This document shows positions 154 through 63,850 of a DNA stretch of 64,000 nucleotides, piece after piece (the first letter of the stretch is position 1; each line of letters begins with the position of its first letter). Under the pieces are notes generated by a model. That model did not search any database. It saw only the letters and a program-made list of their open reading frames with translations, and was not told the DNA's origin. The stretch is from NCBI GenBank assembly GCA_026182355.1, contig JAPFBL010000523.1, positions 62,001-126,000 of the forward strand, given 5' to 3'. A program made the translations under genes and the position numbers. The stretch comes from Hermatobates lingyangjiaoensis. Taxonomy: Eukaryota > Arthropoda > Insecta > Hemiptera > Hermatobatidae.

Positions 154-3100
154 CTGTAAACAAAAAAATAAACAAACTTGTAAATTATATTTCATTTGAA
201 ACAAATGGAGAAAAGATAATTAAATTTCACATTAATACTAGATTGAAGTTAACGTTTCTGTTTCCTTTAATCTATTAGAACATTGAGTAGAATAGAAGCA
301 TATGAGGTGTGTTATTAAATATAAGAATAACCGTTAGATTTTGAAAATGCAACATTTCAATGAAACTCATAAGTTTCGATAGAGATGGATTAAGAGGCGA
401 AATATTTTTCATGTTCACTCTATCACTGCATTATGGAGAGAATCCCTACCCATGAGACATTTTTTAAATAAAACAAATTTAGAACAGTGTTTTATAAACA
501 CATTTCAAATTTTGCTTCCATTTGATGGTTAGCTTGAACATATTTTTTTCCCTATTTTATTTATTACTTTAGCATAAAAATAGAAAACATATTTTAATAA
601 TCATGCTGTTTGTTTCTTGATCACTCTATATTCACAGGTTTTGAGATTTTTCGAAGGTTTTGGCATAGATATTAATGAATACTTCTTCACCAACGTTTCG
701 ACATATATTTATGTCCTCCTCAGGGCTAAAACATTAATACATTGAGCAGAATTATTACGACTACATTAGGCCTAATGTTTGCTAATATGTTTACCTTTTT
801 AATGTGTTACCTTACTAATATGTTTACCTTTTTGTTAAATATTAGCAAACAATAGAGACCTAATATAGTAATAATTGTGTTCAATGTATTAATGTTTTAG
901 TCCTGAGGAGGACATAAATATATGTCGAAACGATGGCGAAGAAGTGCTCTTTAATATCCAGACCAAAACCCTCAAAAAATCTCAAAACCTATTTTAATAA
1001 TGTTCTATTATTTGTAAATGTATTCACACTATACAGGACTCCGTACTCATAAAATCACATAGATTAATATTAGTCAAATCAAATGTTTGAAACTTACCGG
1101 CTAAAACGTTTTCAAATATATGGGACTACTATAAAGGAAACTTAACTTGAAGAATCATATTTATAACAAAAGCATTTAACAAAAACTAAGACAAAAATGG
1201 AATAATTGCTATTAATTATCATTGACTTTGCTGTAGAGTCATATGATATATGCTGCGCTGGGATGATGTTGATGATGATATCATATGATTGGATGAAAAT
1301 ATCATTTCTTTGATCAATATTGATGAAGGAATGATGTAACTACTTGTAGGCAAGTTATGCTATTACTTGTAAATTTTGAGATTTTATACGACAACTACTG
1401 TGGGTCATATTATAATAAAATCACAGCACTGAGGACGAATTTGGGATAGTAATGTGAATGACAAACAACGGGAAAAAGAAAAGATGCGCACAGATTTCCT
1501 ATACGATAATGAATCGAGTATTTTATTAGTATTCTGATTAAACTGAAAGGAAATAGTTTTAGTAATCCTTCCTGTTTCACACAAAATGTCGACGACTTCC
1601 CACAAGGACTTTTCACTTTCTCCTTTTACCTTTTTGATTCGAGCCTGAAGGTCCTGCACAAACAGTTTCCTAAGGTTGTGTAGAGTTTGCAATTCTTTGG
1701 CAACAGTATCTTCCAAGCCCTTCAAATCCTTTCTTGCCTGCTCCCTCCTCTCTTGGTTCAACCTTGCAAATAATTACGATCTATTAGCCTCAGATTGTCA
1801 CACAAAGCAGGGGGTGCTCATACATTATCTGCATGCGAACTACTTATGAAATGAACAAGTCATAATGATCCAGACAATGATTTATTTATAAATATATAGA
1901 GCATTGTTACAATTTTTGATGAAATATGTAATATTTCATCGAAAAAAACCTTTTCTCGATATATTATAATAGTAAATATTCATAAAGAATTAATTTCATT
2001 CGCGCTCCGTCACTTCAAAGTGGAGAGATCTCTCTCACTTCGTCCTCTCTTCTAGTCTACTCCTGATGACGAACAACAGTTCGAAATATTGAGAATTCTG
2101 TGTAAGTGTGCTTTTTATTCTTTTTTCTGTGTCGTGCTTTGTGCAATTTAAAGTTTATTTATAAATATATTGAGCATTGTTACAATTTACGATGAAATAT
2201 GTAATTTTTCATCGAAAAAAACCTTTTCTCGATGAAAAATAACTTTTATCGAAAAATAACCTTTCACATGAAAGTTATACTTTTTCCTTCTTATTCTATC
2301 CAGTCACCCCTCATTTTTATACCCTTTCTTAATTTGAAAAGAAAAAATTAAAGTAAAGAGTAAAAGACAACTTAATGAATAGCATATTAGCTTTATTACG
2401 CTTAGAACTACTTATGCCGTTGCACAGGGACACAGGGACCTAAGTATCAAAAAATCATAATTCATTCGACTAGCCTTCATGTGTATCAATCGGGATGAAT
2501 TAATTATTAATTAACTGGTTATACTAATAATTTATTATACTAATTATACTAATTATTTATCTAATTATACTGATGACATTAATTTGTTTAATGCCACGCG
2601 ATCTGTCAATAATACCCTGATCATAGACTTGTAGAATATCCTTGATATAAACAATTAAAGTTGCTTAATAAAACTGAACTAACATTTCATAAATCGTTTA
2701 TAACCACATATCTACCTCCTTTCCTAAAAGGCAAATTCAACCTGAGAAATGACCAATAGATATGCTTAAAACGTAATTTTCTTAATAACACTAAACTAAC
2801 ATTTAATAAATTGTTCATAAAAAAAATGTCTTGACCACGACAATTACAGTAAATAAAGATTTTTAGAAAGTCATCTACTATATCACAATATAGAAAGAGG
2901 CAAAAATTCACTTGTCTTCAAACAACAGAAAAAAGAAAAATTGTCCCTCTCCTTATAACAAAGTACAACAACAAAAAAGTAAAAACATCTCCAAAAGAAA
3001 AAATTCCATCTCTTTCTTCAATTCCAGAATATTGTTCCCTTCTTCTGTTGTTCATTTTTAATTCAACTCTTTTGGTTTTGCATTAATCCTTAATTTGTGT

Positions 3101-6100
3101 AACAATATTCAAAGATCAAAATAATGCTTCTCTAGTTTTATATCTTTACTCATAAAAAATGAGTTTTTTTCTTCGTTTTTTATAAATTTGATGTCCATGA
3201 AGCCTAAACTATATTACAAAACTGTTTTTTTTCTTATAATGTTTGAAAAAGAGCTCTAAACCACAAAGACAAACTTTTGGTGTTGTTAATCCACTGAAGA
3301 CAAATCCAAACATTTTCCCAATAAGTATGAAGAGCAGTCCAAAATGTTAATAACAACTTGATTATATTTATCAAATCTGAAGAAGATTCTTCACAATTCA
3401 AAACTTCTCAAACACATGTTTAAAACATTCAGTATTGTTCTTCAATAGATATAAATAATACACACTAATTGATTTCAATTATTATTGCTAAAGAAATATT
3501 GTACCTTTCCAAATTAATGAGCAATACTAATTACCTAACCATTCATTGTTTCTTAAATTAATTATTTTTTAATATATTAATTTACTACTGACAATTCATT
3601 TAAGCTAATAAGATGAAAATAATTACAGCTAAATATTGATGCTTCCAAAGAAATATAAAAAACTTTGAAATAGTATATTTGATTGTATACCTTAAATAAT
3701 TTAACATTACATAAATATTATGTAAAATCATTCAATACTTACATTAGTTCTTGCAGTTTGTTGCTCTTTTCCATTTCATCCTGTTTCAACTTCTCATAGT
3801 CTTGTTGAAGTTGTTGGTAAGCCAGGTTATATTTCTGGCATTCACTAAAACATTTTTATGATATTCTTTAAACATAGTTTTAAAATTATTAGAAAAAAAG
3901 TATACAATAATAAACATTATACAATAATAAATGATATTTATTTCAAGTAATAATGGGATAAAGGATATAAGATCAGACATACGACTATATCAATTATGTC
4001 TGATACTCAAGCAAGAATAATCCTGAACTGCAAAAATAAACAATCTCTGTGTATGAGGAACAGGATCTCACTCTACTGGGTGCCAGGACATGCAGGAGTA
4101 GAGGGAAATGAACGAGCAGACGAACTTGCAAAGGAAGGTGCTCGAAAACCGCATATTAGTCCAGGACCATATTGTGGTATAGGACAGCACACTATACAAG
4201 AACTCTTTAGGAAAGAGGATATGGAAAACAGGAAGCAATACTGGGATTCTCTTTCAGGACACAGACAACCAAAGATACTTCTCAATAAGTTTGAAAATAG
4301 GCAAATTTTGTATTGTATGGAAAGAAGCAGGAATTTAACCGGATTTCTAACGGTCACTGCAAACTTAATGACCATCTGCGAAGAATGAACATTATCAATG
4401 ATAGACTGATTCTTGCAGATTCTTTGAGGAAGAGACACCGTTACACCTGCTGGCTGACTGTAAGCCACTTTGCTACACAGAGGCAGGTGTTTCGGGACAC
4501 TCAACGAAACTATAGAACTGTTACCATTGGACCCAGCAAAAGTGCTGAGCTTCTTGGAGGCGTTGAAACTAACTGAAGTAAGGGGGGGGGGGGGGGGGGT
4601 AAATAGTTCTTATAACGCAGTGCCATTATCACCCTCAATGGAAAAGAAAAGTAATAATCACATAATCAGCTTGAACAACCAAATATTTATTTAAAATAAT
4701 AATTAAGGTTAGGTTAGGTTACAGTGGCCGTCCCTAGAGAGAACACACATAGGCCCCTTGTGATACCACAAAATAATAATTAAGAAACAATAAAATTTAA
4801 AATATAATATTAATTATGCAGTTAAGTGGTTCTACGTCAGTATCAGCATATTAATGCTAAAAGATATTGAAGCTTTTGAACGGTTTTGCCTGGTATATAG
4901 AGAGATTCAAACATATGAATGTACCAGATGATATATACACCACCCTGGTGTATAGAGATAGTTCATGTATGAAAATGTTCATGGGCAAAAATTAAAATGT
5001 TTATATAACAAATATAAATACGGCATTTTTAATATTTCAACCTGTAAGTGAAGTAAGGAAGAAAGAAATATAAAAGCAATGACTCTTAGGAGGAACAATA
5101 AAATCTTGTCCAGCGACTCAAGGAGATAATACAGTAATCTCTCACTTTTCGCGGATAATGGGGTCCGAAGGCAACCGCGAAAAGCGAAAATCCGCGAATA
5201 ATGGACGCGCCTATATAAAAGCCTCTAAAGCTCAAACAACGACCTTTCCAACAGAGAGAGAGAATCCTGACCTTACTGAATACTGTACTGTATTGTAAAT
5301 TGAAATGAAAAACAAAAAGAAAAAAGTAAGAAATAATCAATAAAAAAAATTACGTCTTTACCGACTATAAGAGAGAAAGAGAGAGAGAATTATACCCTTA
5401 ATGTATTGTACAATAAATAATAACGCAAGTAAATAAAATAAAAAAAATTCGCAATTATCCTTTATTTTAATTTATAGATGAAAAGGCCTATTTTTTTAGT
5501 TCTATTTTTTGATATTTTTAATATTCTCTTGTTACAATTGATTATGTTTTAATATTTTTCATTAATTTTTAGTCTTGATTGAATATTTTTAATAGCTTTT
5601 ATTAACCTTTAATCTAATGCTGTAGAATATATTTTGACCCAGCAAATCACTGGTTTTTTGATATCTTTCTCGATCGTACAAGAAGAATCCTGTATATTTT
5701 CTTCTCTAATACTAACTACTGAACTTTTTCATTATGTATTTTTATTTTTACTGCAACTACAGTTGAATATTTTTTTATATTTTTTAATTTTCAATTGAAC
5801 ATTTCAGAACCCCGCGAAACACTGAACCGCGAGCTCGCGAGGGATTACTGTACTATCTCTAATTTCCTACAAATGCTTTGACAAAGACAAATCAAACTAC
5901 CCTAATGTTTAGGTCAAAAAAACACTGAACTGTCAAAGATTCTCATTTGGTTTATTTCTAGGCTCGTTATACCACTAAGAATTCTTCAAACCCTCTATAA
6001 CACAGTACATTCACTACAATGTTAAAATCACTTACTCCTTGACTTGAGTAATGAGCTGCTGTTTCTCAGATATTTCATCTCTTAGTTGGCCAACTTGTTT

Positions 6101-9100
6101 TTGATGGGCATCTCTCAATTGGTCCATTTGTTTTTCCAAAGCTTCTCGCATTGTATTTGCTTTTTCTGTTTCAAGAACTGAAGCCGCTCCAACCTGGCAG
6201 AAAAAAAAACCAGGATATTCATATTTTGGTTTGCATCATCATTTAACCTAATCATCTAATTAATTTAAAAGACAGAATACAAATTTTAGGTCTAAACGTT
6301 GTAACAAAAAGTTTTTCCTCCATAGTTTGTACAGTGTAGAAAAAATAAAACATAATGATATTTACTATGAAAATAAAATATAAAAATATAAAACTACACA
6401 TTCTTCTGTCCTGAAATACACAATAGATTTAACCCTAAGAAGTTTATTCACACATTGTGTAAGGAGAAGAGAGATGTAAGTTTATTTAATGAGAATAATA
6501 TAAATGAAACACATTTATCGACTGTTTGTAAATTTATTTTAATTTTAGTTTATAAATAAACATAATACAAAATATTTGCTGTTGTTTTAAAAATCTGATG
6601 ATATTTTTGTTTTATTGCTTTCCTGGCCTCAAAGATAATGCTAAATTTTAAAGACTCTAGAATTGGTAGTTTAAGAGAAAAAAATGTTGTCTAAAAACAG
6701 GTTTTTGACAAAGAAAGTGAAAGTGACTTTCCTATCATGCATAATTACTCCCAAACAATAGGGTTTATCGACACTATGAGGCCCATTTTTTTTGTATAAT
6801 ATCATTTTCATCCATCAATGATTCTGGATACATATCCCACCCACATACACACAGACATCATCGAGAAAACTTCATAAAACGACTTCTGGGGCCTTAAAAA
6901 ACATGTAATTCCGTCAAAATCTCGAGGTCGAATTTTTTCACTATCACAATACTTTTCTTATAGTAAAGTAAAAAAAAAAAGACTATTACTCCTGTTTAAC
7001 TCCACATCCCAGGCTACGTACAGTTATTATGGGAGAGTAACAATGATGGTAGCATTAAACCACGTTGACGCTTAATGAACACAGGAACTGACTGAACTGC
7101 TTCAAGATTACAATACTGGTTCATTTAAGATTATATCAAAGTTTGTATTAGTTTGAAAAAAATATTTTAAACAAATTCTAAAAAATTTTTTTATGTTCTT
7201 ATTATTATAGAAGATGTATATCTCCATTTTATAAATGGAAAATCCAAAAATTAGAAAATTATTCCCAATTCGATTGTTCATCATAAAAAAAATTTTCAGA
7301 ACAAGAAAACATTTAAAAAAAAAAATAGTATGGATCAACCCAAGAACTACACAATCCTTTATTGCGTAGTATTTACTCATGATTAGAATAAAGGGAAGAA
7401 AAACCAAGTCTCCATAACAACAATGCGTTTCGAACACTTAGTGTTCATCTTCAAGGAAGGAAGGAATGTCCTTGACCACTCCACATCTCCTTACTAAGGC
7501 AGTGTAAGTAACTCTTCTTAATTATTATTTTGGTTGAGTTTTCTGTATTCAGTTTCACATTTTTTGTTCATATTTTATATGAACTCAAAATTTTTTGAGT
7601 GCAGACTGTGTTTTTCTTTCCCTCATTCCAATCAGCAGTATGGACACCTTATATAATCTCTACAATTGTTACTAATAACTTTAGTAATTACTTCTACGAT
7701 TTTTTTCTTTAATAGATCCAAGACAGAGAAAAAAAAACAATAATTTTTTTCACAGAAGGGTTCTTGAGGATTTTGGTCATAAACATACAACTCCTGATTA
7801 TATGCCGACGTTTCGCCAAAAGTTGTTTGGCATTTTCAAGGCTAAAAAACAATTTATTAACGACATAAGTAAAGCAAGACAAATACATCCACGGAATACC
7901 AAACAACAGGAAACAAACCAAACAAACAAAAAATTCAGTAACAAGAGAACCACAAAAGGATCATAAAATACCCAGTGTTATTATTCATTATTTAAAAACA
8001 GACATTTGTTGTTTAAACCTAATTACTTATTATTAATTATTCAGAGAACAAAACCCAATTTTCAAATAGATAAGCACACTATTACAATTAGTTTTATAAT
8101 AGTGTGCTTATCTGTTTGAAAATTGGGTTTTGTTGTCTAAATAATTAATAATAAGTAATTAGGTTTAAACAATTGGTTGGTATTCCGTGGATGTATTTGT
8201 CTTGCTCTACTTACGTCGTTAACAAATTGTTTTTTAGCCTTGAAAATGTCAAAACAACTTTTGACGAAACTGTCAGGCATATAATCAGGAGTTGCATGTT
8301 TATGACCAAAATCCTCAAGAACCCCTTCTGTGAATTTGAAATATCAGTGGTCGAGAAGCTCATATCAATATTAAGTATTTTTTTTTGTCATTATTTGAGC
8401 CATAAAATGGAATGTAGTGCAAAATGTTTAAATTTGCTAAAGCATCACTGATATGATTAATGATTTATAAGATGATTGACACGTTTGTATTTTAACATGA
8501 GGTCAATGATAAGTTGTTAAAGATTCTATAATTAAAATCTCACCTGTTCTGCAGCCTTCATTTTGGCACATTCCTCCCTCAGAGAATCCAACTCCTCTTC
8601 CAGGGTTCTCTTCTTGTTCTCCAATTCCCTCATACTCTCCTGCATCGATTTCATTCTTGCCTCATGCTGAGAAACTAGCAATCTAGACTCAGCCAAATCC
8701 TTTTCATATTCGATGATCTACAAAATAAATATGGAACCATGAAGAAACAGCTTTTACGAATGCAACTACACATTCTTCTATCTTGAAATATACAGATTTA
8801 ACCTTAATAAGTTTAGTCACATCCAGTGTAAAGCGATGACAGATGTAAGCTTATTTATTGAGAAAAATAGAATGAAACATATGACAAGTATTTACGATCA
8901 AAATAAATCCTTTGATTAATTACACGTGCAATCTGTTATAGTGTGGTATTTAAACCACATCTATATTGAAATTCCCCAATAAAATTCTTCTCGCTCTTCA
9001 AAAAGTAGTGAAGATGCACCCCGAGTGAGAGAAGAGTAAACCTCTTCATACTCGTACTCTGCACAGTGCAGTCTGTGATAACGCGAAAGCCCAACCTTCA

Positions 9101-12100: not shown

Positions 12101-15100
12101 TTAGAAAATTAAAATATACTACTTTTGTGACCAAAATGAAAGAAAAATTACACTAGATAGGGATTTTATAAACTTGATCTAAAAAAAAAGACACACACTT
12201 CACGCAGGCCAAATGTTCGCTGTATTTCTCTATAGCACTATTAGGTATGCGCAAAATATTTCATTAACTTTGTAGGAACTTCTGTGTTGACTTTCTTACT
12301 AATAGCTTGAACCTTCCTTACTGTTTCGCACTGAGTGCTGGATTATAACCATCCCCTCCCTCATTTTTTGTAAGAGGCATTTAGAAATAGCACAACTCCC
12401 ACGTTATTCTACAGTCAAACAGTATTGAATTACATTATTACTAACTATATCTACCTATCACTAATGACAATCAACGTTAAAAACTTTCGACCCTCATAGG
12501 TCATCTTCAAGTCACACACAAATCCCTCTTACTTCCTACTTCAGCCACAAACTTAAAACTATTTTCAATATTCTTATATTGACTGAGTTTCTTTACTAAT
12601 AACTACTATTCTCTTAACCTGCATTTTGACTAACCTTTCATTCAGAAAATAAAATTGAAATATTCTAATCTTATCAATAACTAAAAGATTTAATCAGTTG
12701 CAAAGTTTAAGGCATGACTGATATGATTACCACAAGTTAAAAAAAAAACAATGAACTACCCATACATTCACCTGACCTATATGTAAGTACATGGTTGGCC
12801 GTAAATCACCATTTTGTTGTTATCATGTTGGAGAATAAAGTTAACAAAGTGCTTCAGAACATGAGTGGCAACACTGTACTCTCCTAGTCAGTTCTACGGC
12901 CCCACCCAAGCTGGGCACAAATCTGTTCGTGAAGCGTAATGAGGAAACACAACTTACTGAATTTTGTATTCATTAAAATTTCGAATGAAGTCGCTAATCA
13001 TTAATTTAAATTTCAATTATGCAACTCTTTTGGTACAGCATGAAATAGAGGAGGGGCAGCAATGATTTACTGATTACCTTTATTAATATAAAACTATAAA
13101 AAAATTTCACATAAACACGTGAAATAACAATCAATGATCAAACCACAATATGAAATGGGAAAGCAAGACTAAGATCTTTCAACCGTAACAAGCGGTCTTC
13201 GTCAGAGTCAAAAACCCAACTGAGTTGATAGTTAAAGTCAGTTGGGTTTTTGACTTTGACGAAGATCACTTCTTACGTTTAAAAGATCTTAGTCTTGTTT
13301 TCCCATTTCATATTATGATTTGATCATTGATTTAAAACGACATAACGCAGGTGACAAAACGATTTTTATAATTTGATAATTTCAAATACAGATCAACGAT
13401 TCTTTTTCCTCTGATACTGCCATTTTCAATGTATGCTAAATAACCTCATCTAAATTTTATTACCTTTATTTCGTTGTCAGATCCGCCCAAAGCAGCACCG
13501 ATTTCAGACAAATCCTTTAACAAGTTGGACAGCATTTCGGTTATTCTCTTTCTTTGATGGGAGGACATGTCTTTCAGTTGCTGAAGTTCGGATGAGGTCG
13601 TATTTAGCATACTCTATAAAAAAAACACACAAAATAGTCAACAACTATTCAGAATAAAAGAATTACAGTAACATATAAAGAATACGATTTGGACTATGAA
13701 ATCATTTCAAGCTGGTATGATCCAACAGGAAGCATGCTTGCCTTTACTACTGAACATTACAGATTCAAATCTTCTTAATGAACCTAGATTTTTTCCGAAC
13801 TTTGGGGTTCTGGCAAACCTTCAAATATTCGTCCTATACAAGCCATTCAATCAAAAATACTTAGAAAACTCTCACATCACCTATTTTACGTTCCAAACAC
13901 AATCATTCACCATTGATCTTAAAGTCCCCTTCGTTCGCGACTTCGCAAAAGACCGTTCGTTACAAACGATTCTACTGTAAACTTTCAACTCATCCAAACC
14001 CACTTGTTCAAAATCTTTCTCTGCTAGTAATCCCCACAAACCTCGAAAGACGGCTAAAACGGCAATGGCCACGTGACCCCTTCTATCGCAGGGGTTCTCA
14101 ATGGGGGGTGAAATTCACCACCCAGGGGTGAATTTTGGGTTTTCAGGGGGTGAATTGTGACAGTGATTTTACAGACTGAGATAAGCTATTATAGGTTTTG
14201 ACCTCTTAATTATAGATTAAAAAATATTATTTTGATTGAATTGATATTTTATCTATCCATCAATAAATTTAATTTGCATTGAATTTATAAAATTCTGTTA
14301 TAAACATAATCAATGTAAAGTAGTAAAAGTGTATATACCACCTTGAAAGAAGAGGAGGTGGGGGAGGTGGGAATAGCAAAAGGAGTGAATGGGCCAAGGG
14401 AGCATGAGAACCCCTGTTCTATCGTAATAAAGATTAAATATAGGGTAAAAAGCTAATGAAATGGTCTCCACATATAAAAATTTAATGGTATAAATAACGC
14501 GTTTCGAACACGTAGTTATTTATACTATTAAATTTTTGTATGTGGAGACCATTTCATTAGCTTTTTACCTAACAATGAGTAAATACCACATAATAACTGA
14601 TTGTACTACGTTAGATTAAATATAGTTAACAGAGTGCCACCAATGGGTGTCTACCCGATTTCCTCTACAAAATGAAAAAAGCTAAAGGAGAAACCCTGAA
14701 ACAAAATTACTTCTACATACATCAAATTGTAGTCAAAGTATCCTATCATACAAAAATAAAAAATCATTAGTTGTGCAAACCGTAATTGTGTGGTATTTAC
14801 TCATTTTGAGGTAAAATGGATAAACCAAGAAAAGTCTCCACACAAATGAAGTTTTATTCAACGCGTTTCGAACACTTTGTGTTCGACATCAGGAAGATGA
14901 TGTCTTCCTGATGATGAACACAAAGTGTTCGAAACGCGTTGAATAAAATTTCATTTGTGTGAAGACTTTTGTTGGTTTATCCATTTTACCTCAGAATGAA
15001 AAATAAAAAAGAAAAAAAATTGCGCTGGACTTGTTTAGTACAAAAGACAAACAGTCTTGTGCACATCATCCCTTGGACAAAATACAAAGCTAAGCCGAGA

Positions 15101-18100
15101 AGAGCCTGTACAATGTCAAGTATTCAATGATGCTACATAATAAATATGAGATAACACAATTAAGGACTCCATATTGCATTAAACCGGGTTATATTTCTAA
15201 TAAATTAGTAAATATTGAACAATTTCCACCCTTAGAACAGTACTAAAGGGAAAACTCCCCTTGAAAAGTAGGCGTATAGAAGCAAGCAAGTAATATTTGA
15301 TTAGAAATACCTGTTTGTGTACAAGCTCTTCAGCAAGGTTTTCATTTTCTTTACTCTTCGTATCCACCTCTTGACTTTTCTGATCATAGTTGACAGCCAA
15401 TTCCTCAAGAGCTTGAAGTACTTCTTTTACTTCTTCTTTGGCACATTCATTTTCTTGAGTAATCCTATTCATTTCCTGCTGTAGTAGTTCATAGTCTCGT
15501 CGAGTTGAAGCAATTAGCTATTGAAAAAAAAAAAATAAAAAGAAACTATGTCAACAAGTTCCTTTAAGTTATTGAAATCATTATTTCCAAAAAAAAAACT
15601 AATTAACACAATGTTCCTTCTTAGATATTATTAATATAATTGCTCAAGAAATACGTTATTCCTCAGTTACAGCGATAAATAGGTAACAGAATCTGGTGTA
15701 ATAGTTGAAAAACTGCGAAGTAGTGTCACCCTCTCATCTTTAACTGTATATATTTAACTTCCTCCCTCTGGTGAGTGATGACATAAAAATATGTAAAATT
15801 TCATAACAATAATCTTATACATATATAACATATGTATATATGTTATATATAACATATAATATGTTTTATATATATATAAAATTAATAATCAATAATAACT
15901 CTTGATATAATATATGAATTAAACAACCACAATAAACAAATATATATTAGATACAATGCTCCAAGGCCTTTCGTTACAACATCATCAGAGAGCTAAATGA
16001 ACTAAACAAAAAATATAATAACAAGTTAACCTGGTAGATTGAAGCCTTCAGGAAACTGAACCTGGTTGACTGAAAGCTTCAATCAACCAGGTTAACTTGT
16101 TATTATATTTTTTGTTTAGTTCATTTAGCTCTCTGATTATGTTGTAAAGAAAGACCTTAGACCATTGTATCTTATATATATTTGTTTACTGCAGTTGTTT
16201 AATTCATATATACATATACAATATAGGTTATCCATAAACAGTTATACATATACTATGTTATATATACATCAGGAATAAACTCAGTGTCTGAATAATTACT
16301 ATGAATTTGATTCTTAACAAAGAACCAGATAAAGGACACACACAAATATCTTGATTGAAATAGCAGATTATCAATTAATAGGTAAATTATTTTTAAAAAC
16401 TGACATCTTCTTGCTCGAGCATTTGTTGTTTTAATTTCTCAACATATTGCGACTGCTGATTGATTTCTTCATCTTTTTCATCAAGTTGTTGATAAAGCCT
16501 TTCCCTTTCCTCTTCAAGTTTCTGTCTTTCTTCATTACTTAAAGAGCCAAACATGAGACCAGCACCAGGAGTTGCAGGAACAGGTAAACCTTCCACACGA
16601 GCTAAAAAAAAAAAAACAAAAACAAAGTAAAACCTTGTTCTTAAACATTTTAATATTCAAATATTTATGCAAAGTTATATAATAATAAGAGGGCCTGGTT
16701 AGCTCAGTGGTTAACGTACTCGCCTCTGGGCTGTACGTTAATCCCCATCTGGGCCTCGATTTATTTACGCAGCAGGTGAATAAATCTGACCACGTCGTCC
16801 CTCGGAGAGGATATTAAGCTGTCGATCTCGAGCAAGAACAAATGTCAGGTACTCAATAAAGATCCCTACACGAAATACACTTGAGTTAGGCAAAAATTTA
16901 GGACTCCCCCAATGTAGAAACTGTAGTATCACCGATCAAACAAAAAGCAGGTAAACGACTGACATTATCACTCCCTAGGAGATCGGTTAAACATTAAAAA
17001 AAATATATAATAATAACATGTAAACATAAAGTATGAACCTTAGTTGACAATTAAAACTAATCAATTGACAGAAAACTAAAAGCTCCCGGAGAGAAACTGT
17101 AAAAAGATTTTCTGAGGCTCTTGTAAAGACCATTAAATATTGATAAATCATAGTACTCCTCAGATTTTCATACACACACACATATCTTTGCTCCTCCTCC
17201 TCACCGGAGTAACCAAGTAGAATTAATAGTTCTTTACATTGACCACAGGCAGTTTTCAAACCCGAAGACACCACTATACACTTTACTATATGAATTATCA
17301 AACCACAATATGAAATGGGAAAACAAGACGAAGATCTTTCAACCATAACAAGCAGTCTTCGTCAGAGTCAAAAATCCAACTGAAAAAACCCAGTTGGGTT
17401 TTTGACTCTAACCGCTTGTTATGGTTGAAAGATCTTAGTCTTGTTTTCCCATTTCATATTGTGGTATGATCATTGATTGTTATTTCACGTGTTTATGTTA
17501 AATCTTTAAACTTTATTACATATAGAGTCAACACTGTAACTGAAAGTTAAAGCAGGCTTAATATCAGAAACGTAACACTGCTTAAAATTTCCACAAGAAA
17601 AAAATACACCAGGATAACTGCAGGCATGTAAATACGCCTATTTTTATTGGGGAAAAATATTCACAGCTAAACTTGTTTGTTTTCCCTTGCCTATACTTAT
17701 AAGGCCTGAACCTTTTAACACTGTTCTAGGGGCGGAAATTGTTACTCATTTATTATTTGGCACCCCATTTTAATAATGGGCGAACCACATTACCTGTTCA
17801 TTCTACATTGGAAGTTCTAACTCAAGTGTATTTAGAGTACAGTAAGGAGAATCTTAAATAATTACCTGACATAGTACAGGCTCATGACCGATGACCGACG
17901 GTTTAACGTCCTCTCCGAGGAACGACTTGCTCAAATTTATTCACTTCCCACGTGAATAAATAGAGGGTCAGGTGGGTATCGAACCCCAGGCCTACCAGTT
18001 CAAAAGCGAGTACGTTAACCAGTGAGCTAACCTGGTACCTATTCACATCTAAACTTATTCTAGTAACATTTTTGCGAGTAAATAATTTTACTTTTTGCAC

Positions 18101-23036: not shown

Positions 23037-26000
23037 CAGGAAAACTGGTTTCCTGCCGTTGTGTTTCCGGCGTGCTTGGTCGCCCATTCTCTTTTCTCCT
23101 GAAGACGGATCATCCGAAAATTTGAGTTTGTAAGTGTGTCTCTTTCTCTGTGTGTTGCTTTTCTTCATTTGTGAACTGATTTGCGTCCAGTTTGGATCGT
23201 TTTTTCCATTTTTAAGTGGATATATATGAATATAATTATACGAATAGATATGAATTATGCTTTAAACTTTTTTCCTCCGTTTTTCCACAGATATCTTTGA
23301 TGGTGGAGTTATATGTTTGTTTATTATAACATTTCTTCATATTCTGAAATTCATAACACTTTATTCTGAATTATAGTTGATTTTTTTTTAATACCATGTA
23401 GATAATATGAAACATAGAACCACTCAAATACAGTTGTACAGAGAAAATCAAAGGAGAGTAAAACAACCAAAGAAACTTTTGACTAATCACTGACCTTCTG
23501 CCAAAGTCGAGAGTACTTTTTGTTTCAGATTCATTAAAGGACGCTGGAGAACAACAAATAATAATAGTAGTCCTAGCATTTCCACCCAGAGATTCTTGTA
23601 ATATCCTCGTCAATTTCGAATCTCTGTAGGGAATGTGCGTTTTATTACCATCTGCTAAGGCCGATATGACGTTTCCGAGAGCTGATAGTGATTTGTTAAT
23701 ATTTTTAGCTTCATCTAAAACAGTACCTTCAGCGCCAGTCTTACTCACCTAAAAGAATAGATAACAAAGAAAATTATATTAGTTTACTACGAAACAGGGT
23801 TTATGCAGTATATGGGAAACATAAACAAGTTTTCATTTTAAGTATCTCTGATGGTAGGACAAAGTAAAAAACATTTTATCAATCTTAAAATGTTTATAAT
23901 AAACTAAAATTAGCGTGTCATAGTAAGAGAAATTTACTACGAAACAGAGGGTTTGCGCAGTATTTATTATGGAAAACATAAACAAGTTTTAATTTTAAGA
24001 ATCAAAATAAAGGTTCTTTATAAAAAAATAAGGATAAAAATTTATATCAAAATAAAAAAAAAATCCAAGTTGAGTTTCTAATAATAGTTTATTGAAATCT
24101 TGCAAAGAAATTTGAAAGGTAAATGAAATCATTATTGCGAACAATTTTTATATTAAACTAAACTAACAGATTATGTAAAACCATGAAACAGAAATGTCAT
24201 AGTTAGACTAAAATCTAAGTTCATCATCAAACGTCAATATGTTGATGTTTAACAAAAAACTTTGCTCAAGGAACACTGCTGCTTTTAGTACACTGTAAGA
24301 ACACCCCAGTATTTCTTTCGACTAACCCACAACACCTACACAAAACCTTGTTCAAGAAACACTGCTGCTTTTAGTATACTGTAAGAACACCCCAGTATCC
24401 CTTTGAACTAACCCACAACACCTACACAAAACCTTGTTCAAGGAACACTGCTGCTTTTAGTATACTGTAAGAACACCCCAGTATTCCTTTGAACTAACCC
24501 ACAACACCTACACAAAACCTTGCTCAAGAAACACTGCTGTTTTTAGTATACTGTAAGAACACCCCAGTATTTCTTTCGACTAACCCAAACACCTACACAA
24601 AACCTTGCTCAAGGAACACTGCTGTTTTAGTATACTGCAAGAAAACCCCAGTATTCCTTTGAACTAACCCACAACACCTACACAAAAACTTGCTCAAGGA
24701 ACACTGCTGCTTTTAGTATACTGTAATAAAACCCCAGTATTCCTTTGAACTAACCCACAACACCTACACAAAACCTTGCTCAAGGAACACTGCTGCTTTT
24801 AGTATACTGTAAGAAAACTCCAGTATTCCTTTCAACTAACCCACAACACCTACACAAAACCTTGCTCAAGGAACACTGCTTACTTTAAGCATACAGCAGA
24901 GAAAGATCCCAGTATTACTTTGCATTGACCCATAAAACCTCTATATTAGCGAAATGGAGAACAAAATTATGAAACAAAAAAAAGGTAACAACTATTCCAT
25001 TTACGTTTCAAAAAAAGTTAAAAAAACTAATACGTTTGTCCTACTCTTCATGATCCGTGAAGAGTTTCTTTGAAATTAATAAGTTTTAACTCAAAGCGTG
25101 CTTCAAACGCGTTGTTATCTATACAACCTCTTTTATAAACAACTTTTTCTTTTATCAAAAAAAAAATCACCTAAAATGAAATCTTTGGACTAAACGATTT
25201 GAATTCTGAGATTAAAAAAATATAATTAATCATTAAATCCCTCTTTCCAATTCATAGTTAGACTAAAATTCACGTTTCATCTTTAGTCGTCAATATGTTG
25301 ATGTAAAATTAATTGTCAAAAAAGGTAAAATGAATTGCTTGATTAACTAATTAATAAACAGAATTACCTTTTCACTACCAGCTAAATCAACTAAATAAAG
25401 TTTTCCAGATAATTTCTTTTCGTTTTCTAAATTTTCTTGTTTTACATTAATGAGGAAAACACTATGGCTTCTTGAACTGTGTTCATTCATATCTAAAAAA
25501 AGAAAAAGAAAAATAATTGAAATACACAATGACTTTAATTAAACTAGTTTTTTTTTTTAAATAAATTCTTCTTACTGGTAACCGCTATATGTCTGTTGGC
25601 TTTTCCTTCTTCAATAACTTCGAATACTTCATCAGGACTCGAGACAAACCTCTCAGTAGCTCCTTTAACGAAGGGTACTCTGTTCTTGTCTTCGTGAACA
25701 CTTAAATTTACTTTTGAAACTGAAAAACACAAAAACAACCATGTTTAGTCAACTGTTATTAATATAATAACTATTAAAGAATCATTTCAAATTTAAAAGT
25801 ATAATTAAAAAAAAAAGAAAAGTAATTTCAAGAAAAATAAGGAAGTAAGAGAATCAAACTGTTTAATATGAGTATCATTCCCATGAAAACGTTTCAAGTT
25901 TTCAAATTTTAAAGGGTTCTAGGTCTAAATTTAATCTTTTCATGATGTAAAATTAATTTACCATTGTAATATTGAAAATATAGTTTCACTGCCTCATATA

Positions 26001-29000
26001 ATGTGATTACTCAAAGGGCAGTTTTTAGATGAGATGAACAGATATACGACCAAGGAAACTAAATTAATCAAATATGTACGAGTTATTGTTTTTTTTATTA
26101 TTTGAGGGTGCCTATAGCACTGCGTGTTAAAAACAACTATTGTACTTCCCCTCTTCTCTACTAAAGTACCCCAGCAGTTAGCTTCAACGCCTCCAAGAAG
26201 CTCAGCACTATTGCTGGTTCCAGCGGTAAAAGTTTTTCTATGGTTTTGTTGAGTGTCCCGAAGCACCTACCTCTGTGCAGCAAAGTTGCCGTACAGTCGA
26301 GATATTGTTTAAACCACAATTATAAAATAATTTATATGATAAATATTTATATATTTCAATTTTTATTACAAGTTGGAAGCAGTCATTCGTTTAAAGATTT
26401 ATTGTTAAATAACGCCCCATATTTGGCTTGTATCTGTTTTTTACACAATTTCTCCAGTTTCCGGAATTTCTTCCTCGTCTCTTCATTAAAACTATAAAGC
26501 TAATCACCAATATTGCTTGTCGACATGTTTTGAATGTACCACATTCATCATCAGGACAATAATGAGAATAATAGTAGGATTGTTAGTTTATATATATAAA
26601 GGTCGATTACTATTGGAATGTTCACAGGACATCACTCTGGATCACGGGGCATTATGGGGGATTAAGGTAGGGTGGTTGGACAGTTTTCTGCCGGCGCGCC
26701 AAAATACCATACAACAGCACTCCATAAGACAAAACTCACAAGAGAAATGATGGTCAAATCCACGAAAATTATTTGTAAAGAAATAAACCATGTTAAATTA
26801 CAAATATTAGAAGCATTAATAATTCAAGAAAAGCAGCCAACCATAAATGTCCAACTTAATAATTCTTGTCGAATTTTAAAACTATTTTCCAACAGGCCAA
26901 ACCAGATTAGCCAGGTAGTGAGTCCAACCACCCTGCCTTAATGCCCTGTGATCCAGGGCGATGTCCTGTGAACATTCCAATAGTAATCCACCTCTATATA
27001 TATAAACTAACAATCCTACTATTATTCTCATTATTGTCCTAATGATGAATGTGGTACATTCGAAACATGTCGACTAACAATATTGGTGATAAGCTTTATA
27101 GTTTTAATGAAGAGACGAGGAAGGAATTCCGGAAACTAGAGAAATTGTGTAAGAAACAGATACATGCCAAATATGGAGCGTTATTTAACAATATATGTTT
27201 ACATTTTTATATATATAATATAGTATTTATATGTATATTTCCTTTTCTAATGGGAATGCAATGGAACCTAATCAAATAAAATTCAATCATTTGACGTCTC
27301 CCACATGAAGGAGGAATCTAAGGCTACAATTAAAATTAGAACCATCAGTCTTCCATTATAACGAACTAGGCGTGGTCTAGTGACTATTACCATTTGCATC
27401 ATGAAAATACAATGTATTATTTATTTCATTCAGTATGTAAGTGGTAAAGTAACACTCAGATTGCCACAGGCACTTTAGGAAATTGTACATTATATAAGCG
27501 TGTTGGAAGGACGAAGGGCGAACTCAACAAATGATGATTTTAAGAAAATCAAGATCTTATGTTTTATTTACAGAAAGCTGAACACAACAAAAAATCATTT
27601 TTTTCTTCTTAATTAAATTCACATTATTTATAACTGTTTAAATTTATTATTTTTTTTAAAAAAAGTGCTTATTTTATTCATTTTAATACTCAACAACTAA
27701 TATTAAAGGGATAAAAAGGTAAAAATCCAACAATAAAAATTATTTATAAAATATAATAAGTTTTATCACCAGGCAATGTCATAAATAAAAAAATAGAAAC
27801 AAATATTGTATACCAATTTATTTATTTCTTAAACAAAATTAAAAACTTTTTAAGTAAAAAGTTAAAAACAATACAATTAGCATAATTATTATTGTTTAAA
27901 ATAATTATGTATGTTAAAAAGGAAGTTTTAAAAAAAATAATTAAAAATAAAAGTAGAAAGTTAAAAATATAAAAGTATTTATTTTAAACATGACTTTTAT
28001 GCGAAACTTTAGCCCTGACAAATTGAATTTAGCTTCTTTGTATAACTAAGATCCTCCTTTCTGAAGTTTTACACAAGTTTTAAACCTAAATTATTACTTT
28101 TTTTGGATGAAAAATCCTGGTTTTTTTCCTTTATTAAAATTAAAATATTTTCTCTTCTATGAATTTCACACAAGTTAATTTCGATGTTTTTACTAGTTTT
28201 TGAAGAGTGGTAATATTAATTATAAGGTCTTGTAGTAAAATAACAACTGTAAAAGCGCTTTTCTTTCTACAATTTTCTAAATTTTTTGGAAAGTTACAAA
28301 CGTTTGTATACAAATATCAACTATATGTCAATGATATAATATATATATGCTCCTATATTAAGTGATTGTCGAATATTCTAAATACTATAAATGAATGATG
28401 AAAGTTCTAACACTTTTGAATTTTATACTTGAACTTTTTCAGAAATTTGATGTTTGCACTTCCAGCATTTATATATAAATATATACTTCTTATTTACTTA
28501 TAATTTATTATTTTAAATCTGAATGATTCAACTGATTTCTATTTACGTGTATGTGTAATTATTCATACCCACAGTATTTATTAAAGATTTATCGTAGGTT
28601 TTTGGGCTGAGTAATAGATTAATCGAATTATAATGTACTGTTATAGAAAAATAAGTCTTGACATACTACCATTTCCATATAATATCTGCACAGGAAGGAA
28701 TTAAATTCATAAGTCGTATAAGTCATAAGCTAACACTGTATTTATTTATGAAGTAATATAATTTTCTAAACTAATTTAGAATAATGTTAAGCTTTCAGAA
28801 TACTTCAGAAGAGTAGTGAACTGTCAAAGTTAAAAAAAACAGCGTAAGATATCCATGAAATAAGTGGAGTGATGTCAAATGATTAATTCAAATTCCTAGT
28901 TACAATTTAGCATGCAAAATAATAAATATCCAACTTTAATATATATAATAATAAATATCCAAAATAAATTATTATCCAACTGTAAATATTCTTTTATGTT

Positions 29001-41701: not shown

Positions 41702-41730
41702 ACTAATAACTTCTCGACCGTGTGACAGAT

Positions 41731-42060
41731 ATACAACTAAAAAATGATTGATCGGGATGCGGTCAGTTTCTTCCACTTTTTAATTCAAACTCTCATTGCC
41801 GACGTTTCGATTTTATTCAAAATCTTTTTCATAGGCATAAGTAGGAGTATTGGCAATTGAAGGAACTATTACATTTTCATTTCTGAACTAGTAATACTAC
41901 TCTACTAGTTCAGAAATGAAAATGTAATAGTTCCTTCAATTGCCAATACTCCTACTTATGCCTATGAAAAAGATTTTGAATAAAATCGAAACGTCGGCAA
42001 TGAGAGTTTGAATTAAAAAGTGGAAGAAACTGACCGCATCCCGATCAATCATTTTTTAGT

Positions 42061-42066
<6 letters not shown>
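41731..42066. repeat. perfect palindrome of about 160-bp arms
   Basis: ATACAACTAAAAAATGATTG at the left is mirrored to the right end without visible mismatch over most of its length, with a loop of a few bases at about 41890-41900. Each arm has the variant-core motif (TATGAAAAA, GATTTT/AAAATC, GAAA, ACGT, C, stem I GCC/GGC). Flanked on the right by (TA)n. Confidence 0.85.
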
Positions 42067-42096
<30 letters not shown>

Positions 42097-44960: not shown

Positions 44961-45171
44961 AACTATGTAAGAGATTTATTGGCTATTGAAACCATGTTCT
45001 CCTGTAAGAGATTATTTCGTAACACGAAATCTACACTTTCGCTTTTAAAAAATGTTATTACTACTGTAGTTATACTATATACGGTACTGTTTTCTTGACC
45101 ACAAAATATTAACAAACACTTTTTCTTCTTCTCGGAGTTTGGTCAGGGTAAATATATGGAATCACCTTTTT

Positions 45172-45207
45172 GCCAACGTTTCGTCTTTATTTTAAGACAT
45201 CCTCAGG
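45172..45207 (-). ncRNA. hammerhead-type ribozyme-like motif
   Basis: Core CTGAGGA, extra T, stem II GTCTT/AAGAC, GAAA, palindrome ACGT, T. It faces the copy at 45221-45259. Confidence 0.5.
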
Positions 45208-45220
45208 ATGTCTTAAATAA

Positions 45221-45259
45221 ATCCCTGAGGATGTCTTAAAATAAAGACGAAACGTTGGC
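45221..45259 (+). ncRNA. hammerhead-type ribozyme-like motif
   Basis: Stem I CC/GG, core CTGAGGA, extra T, stem II GTCTT/AAGAC, GAAA, palindrome ACGT, T. Only 13 bases separate it from its inverted partner. Confidence 0.55.
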
Positions 45260-45321
45260 AAAAAGGTGATTCCATATATTTACCCTGACCAAACTCCGAG
45301 AAGAAGAAAAAGTGTTTGTTA

Positions 45322-49790: not shown

Positions 49791-49828
49791 ATCCCTGAAG
49801 ATGGTCAAAGTGACCGAAACGTTGGAAT
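49791..49828 (+). ncRNA. hammerhead-type ribozyme-like motif next to PLE remnants
   Basis: Stem I TCC/GGA, core CTGAAGA, extra T, stem II GGTC/GACC, GAAA, palindrome ACGT, T. It lies downstream of a GIY-YIG remnant (49341-49589) and upstream of a PLE N-terminal remnant (49880-50047), the order expected of a Penelope pseudo-LTR. Confidence 0.65.
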
Positions 49829-49879: not shown

Positions 49880-50047
49880 TTACTGCTATGCAGCTCAAAA
49901 ATAAATCATTCAATAAAACATTCAATTTACCTGAAGAGTTAAAAACCAAGCTTAGAAAACTTGAGAAATTAAATAGAAAACGAACAAAAATGAAGATCGG
50001 CATACTCTTTAATAAAACATGTCTAAATGAAGGTCTGCTCCCATAAT
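49880..50047 (+). pseudogene. PLE N-terminal coding remnant ending in (TA)n
   Basis: Frame reads LPEELKTKLRKLEKLNRKR then ILFNKTCLNEGLLP, passes one stop and merges into (TA)n at 50048. It matches the family pattern FN-TCL-E-LLP-YTNIY. Confidence 0.6.
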
Positions 50048-50050
50048 ATA

Positions 50051-50092
<42 letters not shown>

Positions 50093-50740: not shown

Positions 50741-51035
50741 ACAAACACTTTTTCTTTTTCTCGGAGTTTGGTCAGGGTAAATACTCGTATATGGAATCAC
50801 CTTTTTGCCAACGTTTCTCTTTATTTCAAGACATCCTCAGGGCTATAAATGAATGCTGGGTTCTGTTACATTACAACAACCGGTTACATTACATTACACG
50901 GTTGTTGTAATGTAACAGAACCCAGCCTTCATTTATAGCCCTGAGGATGTCTTGAAATAAAGACGAAACGTTGGCAAAAAGGTGATTCCATATATTTACC
51001 CTGACCAAACTCCGAGAAAAAGAAAAAGTGTTTGT
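50741..51035. repeat. inverted-repeat element, longer copy of the 45111 family
   Basis: Same termini as 45111-45320 plus an additional mirrored centre (TGGGTTCTGTTACATTACAA and complement). TA tracts lie on both outer sides. Confidence 0.85.
50938..50975 (+). ncRNA. hammerhead-type ribozyme-like motif
   Basis: Stem I GCC/GGC, core CTGAGGA, extra T, stem II GTCTT/AAGAC, GAAA, palindrome ACGT, T. The partner (50807-50843, minus) lacks the stem II end. Confidence 0.6.
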
Positions 51036-51054: not shown

Positions 51055-51235
51055 CAATGATCAAACCACAATAAGAAATGGGTGTTTCTTTCATCTAGTG
51101 TTTCAGTTGGGTTTTTGACTCTGACGAAGACCGCTTGTTAGGGTTGAAAGAACTTAGTCTTGTTTTCCCATTTCTTATTGTGGTTTGATCATTGATTGTT
51201 ATTTCACGTGTTTATGTGAAATCTTTTTATATATT
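51055..51235 (+). repeat. short ribozyme-family element
   Basis: Motif 51117-51159 with intact core but palindrome mutated to AGAACT; ends with the family hairpin TTTCAC...GTGAAA before TTTTATATA. Confidence 0.65.
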
Positions 51236-51290: not shown

Positions 51291-51916
51291 TTGTATAGGA
51301 TGACAACAAATCTTCTTAGAGGGATATTTTGTTGAAATGTACCGCAGATTCGGTATTTACGACTGTCAAACTAAGCTGTTCCAGTCTCCTGACAGTCTTA
51401 CAAATAGAAGGTGGTAATTCCCAGATAAGTTGTCCAAAGGACCTTGAGACACTTTCTTTGAAACACTTTAATAAATATCAACAGTTTTAATAGAACTGAA
51501 AGACTAACATCACAGGTAAATAATTTAACATAACTTACTATCCATAAACACAAGCTTTCGACTATGCAATAATTATCGTGAGGTTAGAAATTGAAGTCTT
51601 ACATTTCAAAAAATTGAAATTAAGTCTTACATTTCTTTTTGATACGTAAGACTTAAATTTTTAACCTGACGATGACTATTGCATAGTCGAAAGCTTGCGT
51701 TTATGGATAGTAAGTTATGTTAAATTATTTACCTGTGATGTTAGTCTTTCAGTTGTATTAAAACTGTTGATATTTATTAAAGTGTTTCAAAGAAAGTGTC
51801 TCAATGTCCTTTGGACAACTTATCTGGGAATTACCACCTTCTATTTGTAAGACTGTCAGGAGACTGGAACAGCTTAGTTTGAAAGTTGTAAATGCCGAAT
51901 CTGCGATACATTTCAA

Positions 51917-51935
<19 letters not shown>
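51291..51935. mobile_element. inverted pair of PLE pseudo-LTRs
   Basis: Two roughly 300-bp arms mirrored about 51628. The plus arm reads ribozyme-like motif (51663-51699), then coding SFGQLIWELPPSICKTVRRL and KVVNAESAIHFN, then (TA)n at 51917. The minus arm is the same in reverse, ending in LL-SYTNIY and TA repeats at about 51290. Confidence 0.75.
51663..51699 (+). ncRNA. hammerhead-type ribozyme-like motif
   Basis: Core CTGACGA, extra T, stem II GACTAT/ATAGTC, GAAA, palindrome AGCT, T. Followed downstream by PLE N-terminal coding remnant to 51915. Confidence 0.55.
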
Positions 51936-53774: not shown

Positions 53775-53817
53775 GCTCGACCGGTTTCGGGTCCGTCTGG
53801 ATCCCATCTTCAAGAGC
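53775..53817 (-). ncRNA. hammerhead-type ribozyme-like motif, first core base changed
   Basis: Stem I GCTC/GAGC, core TTGAAGA (C to T at the first position), extra T, stem II GGG-TCC/GGACCC with a bulge, GAAA, palindrome ACCGGT, cleavage base C. Likely inactive as written. Confidence 0.4.
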
Positions 53818-61875: not shown

Positions 61876-62168
61876 TCTCTAATTTTCCATTATTCTTCTT
61901 TCATATTGGGGTTACTCCCAAATTAACTTTGCCAGAGACATTTGAATTTTACCAGTTGGAATAACATATAATGACCAGTTAAACGAATAACCAACTAATT
62001 TATTTACTCACAAGCTTTCGACTATACAGTGGTCATCATCAGGTGACGATATATTAGTTGCTTATTCGCTTAACTAGTCATGATATGTTATTCCAACTGC
62101 TAAAGTTCAAATGTCTCTGGAAAAGTTAATTTGGGAATAACCCCAATATGAAAGAAGAATAATCAGAG
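61876..62168. repeat. inverted-repeat PLE pseudo-LTR pair
   Basis: Arms share TTCTTTCATATTGGGGTTA and complement. The left arm holds the intact motif 62008-62045; the right arm is truncated before its own motif. Confidence 0.7.
62008..62045 (-). ncRNA. hammerhead-type ribozyme-like motif
   Basis: Stem I TCAC/GTGA, core CTGATGA, extra T, stem II GAC/GTC with imperfect extension, GAAA, palindrome AGCT, T. Confidence 0.5.
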
Positions 62169-62932: not shown

Positions 62933-62935
62933 AAT

Positions 62936-63305
62936 GATCAAACCACAATAAGAAAATGGGAAAACAGACTAAGATCTTTCAACCGTAACAAGCGGTTGAT
63001 TGTTATTTCACGTGTTTATGTGAAATCTTTTTATACATATGTATGTATAAACTGGCAGCAGTTGTTCATCTAAGCCTGTATTGTCAAACAGCAGAGCAGA
63101 TTCTGCATTAACGATTTTTTTCCGCTATTGTTCTTTTTTTCTAAACATTTTCTATGCTGTAAAGGCAATGATAATAATCCAGTATGTTTCTGGGAAATTT
63201 ATTATCTTCATTACCTTTGCAGCATAGAAAAGTGATTAGAAAAAAAAAGAACAATTGCTAAAAAAAATCATGAATGCAGAATCTGGTCTGCTATTAAGCA
63301 ATATA
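62936..63305. repeat. short-family fragment followed by inverted PLE N-terminal piece
   Basis: 62936-63031 is a core-deleted short-family element. 63057-63165 encodes (minus) KIVNAESALLFDNTGLDEQL and LPVYTYI; 63225-63300 is its inverted, shorter copy ending in (TA)n. Confidence 0.6.
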
Positions 63306-63389: not shown

Positions 63390-63560
63390 TATATCAGTTC
63401 ACAAACGAAGAAAAGCAACACACAGAGAAAGAGACACACTTACAAACTCAAATTTTCGGATGATCCGTCTTCAGGAGAAAAGAGAGAATGGGCGACCAAG
63501 CACGCCGGAAACACAACGGCAGGAAACCGTCCCGGCAACCGACCGTGCTGCCACGCGCGC
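63390..63560 (-). repeat. ribozyme-family element (GGATCATCC family)
   Basis: Shares AGTTCACAAACGAAGAAAAG, CACAGAGAAAGAGACACAC and CACGCCGGAAACACAACGGC with copies at 23035-23225, 41440-41665 and 62755-62900. The sharp boundary is (TA)n on the outer side. Confidence 0.6.
63447..63477 (-). ncRNA. hammerhead-type ribozyme-like motif
   Basis: Stem I CTC/GAG, core CTGAAGA, extra C, stem II GGA/TCC, GAAA, palindrome AATT, T; identical in layout to 23096-23126. Confidence 0.55.
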
Positions 63561-63807
63561 CCGGTTCAGGAAGTAATGAAGTAGAGACGATCAGAAGAAA
63601 ATTAATATTAAAATTAAAATTAAGAATTAAGAAAAGCAGTTCTGGTTGATTGAAGGTAAAATTAACAGCAGGAAGATAAATGAAGTATAAAATGGAATAC
63701 CGTGAAAAATACCTAAAAGCATGAAAAAGGAAGATAACAGAGTTGGTAAGGCGATGAGAAACAAATGAATATATATATATATATATATAATATTCAGTTG
63801 GGTTTTT

Positions 63808-63850
63808 GACTCTGAAGAAGACCGCTTGTTATGGTTGAAAGATCTTAGTC
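63808..63850 (+). ncRNA. hammerhead-type ribozyme-like motif (short-element family)
   Basis: Stem I GACT/AGTC, core CTGAAGA, extra A, stem II GACC/GGTT, GAAA, palindrome AGATCT, T. Followed by the family's CCCA...ATTGTGGTTTGATCA stretch and a (TA)n tract. Confidence 0.6.

Follow-up and report, generated by a model that had tools for sequence, protein, structure and literature searches.

Small hammerhead ribozymes of Penelope-like elements (PLEs) carry out cleavage in dimeric form (Lunse et al., 2017, as cited in PMC6466107 and PMC7761336), and one review calls the activity and role of minimal PLE hammerheads 'still a mystery' (PMC7761336). Published PLEs possess pseudo-long terminal repeats (pLTRs), one of them inverted and overlapping or abutting the other, with palindromes where they join; one inverted pLTR may carry a tail of about 30-40 bp, and the insertions lie in AT-rich targets with short target duplications (PMC3846280). 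PAc of Anolis has been reported to cleave both target strands and to use two adjacent reverse-transcription start sites whose spacing corresponds to the tail, and its hammerhead, located at the start of the open reading frame (ORF), is dispensable for insertion in vitro (PMC11167929). Here, a stretch of 64,000 nucleotides from the hemipteran Hermatobates lingyangjiaoensis (contig JAPFBL010000523.1, positions 62,001 to 126,000; called the window below) was analyzed, in which an earlier note had described numerous hammerhead-like motifs. We consider it highly probable that these motifs are minimal type I hammerheads in the pLTRs of many PLE families; their paired insertions are most likely dual-primed, and their RNAs are predicted to cleave as dimers after nucleotide H17.

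Hammerhead motifs and their helices

Both strands of the window were scanned for CTGANGA followed by zero to two free bases, a hairpin of at least 3 pairs, GAAA, a palindrome of length 4, 6 or 8 with A15.1 as its first base, one further base, and a stem I of at least 3 pairs. This strict scan detected 15 hammerhead motifs in the window versus 1 in total over 100 dinucleotide shuffles, and the type I core (C3UGANGA9 ... G12A13A14, A15.1-U16.1, H17 not G) is present at the 15 strict sites. When a single core mismatch was tolerated and stem I could be as short as 2 pairs, 28 sites were obtained and 10 Markov controls together gave 1; this relaxed scan awarded one score point to the form with one free base, a bonus that neither the strict scan nor a no-preference scan of offsets contained. 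A BLAST search with 13 representatives revealed 61 places at E<=0.05, decayed copies included, of which the one at 12008 is probably a chance match and several were judged to be fragments, so that the 'about 40' motifs of the earlier note are a fair and perhaps low estimate. The motif, its strand order and its coordinates were also borne out, all 11 copies named there as best lying on strict-scan sites or at most one base off. The base after the palindrome, said there never to be G in intact copies, is T in 22, C in 5, A in 1 and G in 0 of the 28 relaxed sites. The same note was right that more than one family is present, but its 'at least nine' is too low a figure for 13 representatives with different sets of stems II and III. 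The check with Rfam that it had proposed turned out negative: hammerhead models matched nothing in the window at the gathering score or at E<=10, and the top-scoring microRNA-family matches of the E<=10 search coincide with long palindromes of the window. Rfam models can miss such ribozymes, and Rfam-based counts may therefore be too low.

Strict sites that also belong to the covariation set lie at 688..727 (minus strand, stem III palindrome ACGT, family ACGTa), 2059..2094 (plus, ATAT, then GTAAGT), 13167..13209 (minus, AGATCT), 14904..14944 (plus, ACGCGT), 15959..15992 (minus, AGGCCT), 23095..23127 (plus, AATT, family AATTa, then GTAAGT), 33690..33723 (minus, AATT, family AATTb, then GTAAGT), 49791..49827 (plus, ACGT, family ACGTb), 50937..50976 (plus, ACGT, family ACGTc) and 62008..62046 (minus, AGCT, family AGCTa). 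Further strict sites are those of the AGATCT family at 31273..31315 (minus), 33499..33541 (minus) and 63808..63850 (plus), one of the ACGTc family at 50806..50844 (minus), where the foot of stem II is one base short, and one of the AATTa family at 63446..63478 (minus), which is followed by GTAAGT. The covariation set is completed by two sites of the relaxed scan, 27035..27075 (plus, ACATGT, one core mismatch) and 53775..53817 (minus, ACCGGT, with U3), and by 51662..51700 (plus, AGCT, family AGCTb), which has a single-pair stem I and was likewise used for dimer folding.

These 13 representatives differ in the sequence of stem II or stem III around a constant core, the whole of which is intact in 11 of them, one base differing in 27039 and in 53813. 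Positions 1-3 of stem I, 1-3 of stem II and 1-2 of stem III were scored, giving 104 stem cells, of which 102 pair. When the 3' halves were permuted between families 5000 times, a mean of 69.3 and a maximum of 90 cells paired and none of the 5000 permutations reached 102, in agreement with the helix covariation that had been claimed. Stem III is an even, loopless palindrome in 13/13 representatives (the scans required a palindrome but not which one). Nine distinct palindromes occur, ACGT three times, AATT and AGCT twice each, and ATAT, AGATCT, ACGCGT, AGGCCT, ACATGT and ACCGGT once each, and all four possible pair types are found at the inner pair. As stem III is loopless, one molecule alone is unable to close it, and pairing of two copies is required; stem I of the resulting double hammerhead is likewise intermolecular. 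Judged from sequence, the predicted dimer architecture of the window motifs matches that of the small dimer-cleaving hammerheads of PLEs.

In the textbook hammerhead core, stem II begins right after A9. The 'one base' that the earlier note had listed behind CTGANGA, without reporting it as a departure from this usual core, is a constant feature of the window: exactly one unpaired base separates A9 from stem II in 14/15 strict sites and two do so in the remaining site, whereas the usual arrangement with stem II directly after A9 was not encountered at strict sites. The pair that opens stem II after the extra base is G-C or G-T. When offsets 0-3 were scanned without preference, offset 1 was best in 13/14 sites, and a scan that permitted no free base at this position yielded 2 sites, including a decayed AGATCT copy. 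Among the representatives, the extra base is T in 8, C in 3, A in 1 and G in 1. No excess of this form was seen in viral and prokaryote contigs, where hairpins of at least 5 pairs stood at offset 1 in 2 of the 143 distinct pattern matches listed and at offsets 0, 2, 3 and 4 in 1, 5, 1 and 1 of them. In one viral contig (L001:11739-11776), a motif resembling a hammerhead combines the extra T with palindrome ACGT and a stem II of 7 bp, a single case that may be due to chance; another viral contig (L028:2349-2385) has a motif with a 7-bp stem II and without the extra base. The idea that the extra T serves as part of a start codon (A9-T-G10) found no support here, the frame stopping within 10 codons in 7/8 representatives of the T class and after 44 in ACCGGT.

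The hammerhead is followed by GTAAGT, which is a 5' splice-site sequence, in 9/15 listed places with extra C, 2/19 with T, 0/13 with A and 0/4 with G, a count based on 51 hand-picked places of the 61, in which copies of one family are not independent and the chance expectation is 0.011 per place. Introns and intron retention are known in Penelope elements (PMC3846280; Arkhipova et al., 2003, as cited).

Variants of the core also occur. At 7803..7843 (minus; C3 position 7839), a hammerhead found by the no-preference offset scan has the core TTGAAAA, in which U3-A8 replaces C3-G8, a form additional to the 13 representatives; this swap is known in natural hammerheads and is active in vitro (PMC3088659). 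The core TATGAAA, likewise a form beyond the 13 representatives, is found at 41833 (minus) and 41963 (plus), in the two arms, 98.5% alike, of one 339-bp palindrome (41729..42067) with stems I-III intact. The same core is present at 30203 (minus) in a related palindrome with arms 83.7% alike, where stem II has changed from GATTTT/AAAATC to GGTTTT/AAAACC. One reading of TATGAAA is U3-A8 plus an inserted A. As the altered core stands in both of two arms that are 98.5% alike, this family moved without the standard core, and it moved without cleavage if the altered core is dead.

Inverted pLTR pairs, one-arm tails and target sites

Comparison of the window with itself revealed many inverted repeats of about 125-590 bp overall, with 810 bp for 26392-27201 when its spacer is included. 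In or between the arms of inverted repeats lie 42/60 hammerhead places, many with a second copy on the opposite strand, an arrangement that had gone unreported in the earlier note. Where neighbouring places belonged to the same letter group and were at most 500 bp apart, 16 pairs were divergent, 0 convergent and 1 tandem. The elements thus show the head-to-head inverted pLTRs with palindromic junctions that characterize PLEs. The C3 positions of the 17 pairs are 15-484 nt apart, which leaves too little room for a reverse-transcriptase ORF.

Direct repeats of 11-14 bp, differing in sequence, border 5/27 elements, and swapping flanks between elements gave a repeat of at least 11 bp in 2.8% of 702 trials. 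Duplications accompany the head-to-head pairs at 602..990 (left-arm tail of 34 nt, duplication of 11-12 bp), 14444..14612 (right-arm tail of 43 nt, 13 bp, AGATTAAATATAG), 32871..33158 (arms 95.9% alike, left tail of 44 nt, 11 bp, GTGATAATTTT) and 45082..45321 (arms 96.7% alike, hammerheads at 45206 on the minus and 45225 on the plus strand, left tail of 28 nt, 9-13 bp), and the AGATCT-family pair at 51056..51234 (right-arm tail, 14 bp, TATATATTAGTATA). In 4/5 duplicated elements one repeat touches the palindrome and the other is 28-44 nt away, an offset that consists of a tail borne by a single arm; in the remaining element this tail falls within the edge that had been set.

Exactly one tail of about 28-44 nt was found in 12/13 readable pairs and two tails in none, the one-tail pairs comprising 7 of AGATCT, 2 of ACGTa (one by eye), 1 of ACGTc and 2 of ACGCGT. 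The AGATCT-family tail, TGTTATTTCACGTGTTTATGTGAAATCTTT, is 30 nt long, is able to form a hairpin and occurs on one side only in 7/7 readable pairs, as at 13105..13330, where only the left arm bears it. In the same 7/7 pairs the tailless arm ends at GATCATTGAT or at most about 4 bases away, AT-rich flanks blurring the exact base; the two outer ends of this family are about 30 nt apart and recur within about 4 nt. In the AGATCT pair 62928-63035 the tail side consists of little beyond the tail, and in the pair at 33430..33594 the right-arm hammerhead is gone between the strands of stem I, as if the enzyme had jumped across the base of the fold. A 587-bp palindrome at 51331..51917 carries AGCTb hammerheads at 51582 (minus, altered) and 51666 (plus). 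Of 21 (TA)n tracts of at least 16 bp, 14 touch an element edge, and 1000 rotations of the edges gave a mean of 1.3.

Two further observations concern such pairs. In the ACATGT pair 26392-27201, coding likeness extends past the left arm and not past the right, and by eye this may be a further one-tail case, which was not counted. At 31417-31633, near AGATCT-family fragments, lies a palindrome with arms 98.6% alike in which a hammerhead was not recognised.

Proposed mechanism and competing explanations

Most likely, a paired insertion would begin when a staggered cut in AT-rich DNA primes element-encoded reverse transcription by a PLE protein presumably supplied in trans. One cDNA would be begun at each cut strand, one at the tail-side start site and the other at an inner start site, and where both hammerheads remain, both cDNAs would have crossed the hammerhead, halted not far upstream and been joined head to head at their ends. 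The expected product consists of two pLTRs arranged as a palindrome, without enough length for a reverse-transcriptase ORF. At the RNA level, stem I and the palindromic, loop-free stem III would join two copies into a double hammerhead, with a cut after H17. Since the end of the tailless arm is nearly fixed and not random, each arm seems to have had its own cDNA start, rather than one being a copy of the other; where both arms contain a hammerhead, both cDNAs passed through it and those templates were uncleaved there. Cleavage does not shape most of the insertions read, and it may process longer tandem transcripts.

Several results weigh against dual-primed insertions of PLEs whose RNAs cleave as dimers. 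When dimers were folded with RNAcofold (ViennaRNA), the full double hammerhead was best in 1/13 representatives (ACCGGT); the best dimer of AGGCCT has stems I and III of the double hammerhead without stem II, the remaining 11 representatives favour other pairings, and thermodynamic support for the dimer is weak. No duplication of at least 11 bp was found at 22/27 elements, and (TA)n at the edges may hide further ones. The pair 50734-51042 has no tail, the element edges were in part placed manually, and among their rotations the highest count of (TA)n contacts was likewise 14, perhaps in a rotation near zero. A cleavage footprint in shortened AGATCT arms was looked for by eye and dismissed, as 1/6 (31318) starts at the predicted cut and the others lie at about -25, -5, +5 and +11 from it or, in one case, lack a hammerhead. 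A protein search with the coding remnant described below gave no match (the best PDB hit, E 0.94, is no homologue), and neither reverse transcriptase nor GIY-YIG was found by Pfam in 20 ORFs, which do not represent all frames.

Instead of two separate primings, snap-back self-priming might produce the head-to-head arm, a route that has been proposed for the Penelope elements of Adineta vaga. Some pairs do have highly alike arms, and the A. vaga authors favoured self-priming for such palindromes (PMC3846280). However, a copied-back arm should bear the tail or end anywhere, whereas in all seven readable AGATCT pairs the tailless arm stops near one family-specific position, to within about 4 nt, and we regard self-priming as possible but doubtful. 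A structural reason for keeping the stems, such as protein binding, RNA pairing or the start of reverse transcription, with cleavage no longer in use, is unlikely. The TATGAAA-core family, which retains stems I-III and moved recently, would agree with this, as would the report that PAc hammerhead mutants left in vitro insertion unchanged (PMC11167929), but every catalytic core base is kept in 11/13 representatives and a U3-A8 swap such as that at 7839 is reported to be active elsewhere (PMC3088659). A related idea, which we hold to be quite improbable, is that the self-complementary stem III is an assembly device that ties two identical template RNAs together, so that one ribonucleoprotein primes both strands of a staggered cut. 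One-tail palindromic double-pLTR insertions would then be the direct product of two start sites, and as selection would keep pairing and not cutting, the altered-core family would still have moved; in families with extra C and with GTAAGT a few bases past the cut, slow cleavage competing with splicing would help explain intron retention.

The elements are short, AT-rich and palindromic, with no room for a large ORF and with TA-rich edges, features also expected if they were foldback or miniature inverted-repeat (MITE)-like DNA transposons in whose inverted repeats a conserved hairpin without ribozyme function is present by accident. This is very improbable given that families whose helices are unrelated retain the single-stranded core and obey the H17 rule of hammerheads, that the five clear duplications are 11-14 bp long and differ, and that the tail stands on one arm only in 12/13 readable pairs, unlike terminal inverted repeats. 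Retrozymes are made up of tandem units. It is extremely unlikely that the elements are metazoan retrozymes, small and non-autonomous, with one hammerhead per unit and spreading via circular RNA: although they are short and their hammerheads have the type I order, neighbouring copies are inverted and not tandem (16 divergent versus 1 tandem pair), and by eye the long 172-bp tandem array of the window is without the hammerhead fold.

Coding remnants, genomic setting and comparison with described systems

Downstream of the hammerhead at 49795, a coding remnant (LPEELKTKLRKLEKL...FNKTCLNEGLLP(stop)YTN; 49927..50055, plus strand) runs into (TA)n. Remnants of one peptide were found downstream of three hammerhead families (ACGTb, ACATGT and AGCTa), with identities of 21/37 between ACGTb and ACATGT and 15/32 between ACGTb and AGCTa. 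As this coding evidence is thin, the elements are named PLE-derived double-pLTR insertions and not full PLEs. Their non-coding features fit PLEs, and the type I architecture and the Penelope-like link proposed earlier are well supported by the sequence, the covariation, the inverted pLTR pairs, the tails and the target duplications. The suggestion of recent activity is likely to hold for some families, whose standard-core arms are up to 96.7% alike, but not for others (77-85%).

Exons of a kinesin-1 heavy chain were recognised on the minus strand at 23374-23748 and 30815-31351 (Pfam Kinesin 1.3e-33 and 2.1e-29; PDB 2y5w 5.3e-50), and as several hammerhead places lie between kinesin exons, these are intronic; by eye, the ORFs 1408-1773, 15200-15517 and 16396-16656 may be further kinesin exons. 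Exons of a Ser/Thr protein kinase, testis-specific-kinase-like by eye, lie on the minus strand at 57134-57361 and 60673-60918 (Pfam Pkinase 9.9e-8 and 6.7e-23), and a fragment of RNase H at 3954-4385 (plus) probably comes from a retroelement (Pfam 6e-9). A 172-bp satellite at 8991-11690 (15.7 copies, 97% alike) contains CTGAAGA and GAAAGCT; it was rejected as a retrozyme, and its 15 CTGAAGA copies do not resemble hammerheads, being by eye without stem I and without a clean stem II. Other repeats are a tandem repeat of 86 bp at 24252-24940 (8 copies, 91% alike) and a dispersed repeat of about 330 bp without a hammerhead place at 16681-17013, 48576-49219, 56633-56958 and 58638-59459 (about 76-94% alike), a piece of which overlaps the 15-bp tandem AAAGATTCCTACTCG at 47587.

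With the dimeric PLE hammerheads (Lunse et al., 2017; Cervera and de la Pena, 2014; both via citing papers), the motifs of the window share the type I order, a minimal or absent helix III, the association with PLE pLTRs and, as we infer here, cleavage as dimers. Unlike these, the window holds many unrelated families within 64 kb, has 42/60 places in inverted repeats and carries the extra core base. A single extra residue between A9 and G10.1 is also present in the plus-strand hammerhead of chrysanthemum chlorotic mottle viroid, where it is A, U being faster in trans and C and G much worse (PMC3705267); the viroid system differs in being a viroid ribozyme, and in the window the extra base is T in 8 and C in 3 of the 13 representatives, with A and G once each. 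The pLTRs, inverted pLTR, palindromic junction, one-arm tail, AT-rich targets and, where clear (5/27 elements), the short duplication are those described for A. vaga Penelope (PMC3846280). In contrast to this element and to PAc, both of which carry ORFs, the pairs of the window are too short for one, and a scan of 20 ORFs revealed no reverse transcriptase. Metazoan retrozymes (PMC7229834, PMC7761336) are likewise non-autonomous and have type I hammerheads. Retrozyme units stand in tandem, whereas in the window the elements form inverted pairs and their stem III is loopless.

The observation is strong and holds up, and for the most part it is of a kind already described, minimal dimeric hammerheads being known in PLEs. 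New or newly countable are the families and how densely they lie, the extra base and its uniformity, the short one-tail palindromes with two ribozymes and the mobile altered-core family. At least 13 families with unrelated helices in one genome, together with a near-clean one-tail rule, palindromic insertions with target duplications and a recently moved altered-core family, allow cleavage, pairing and the choice of start site to be examined separately.

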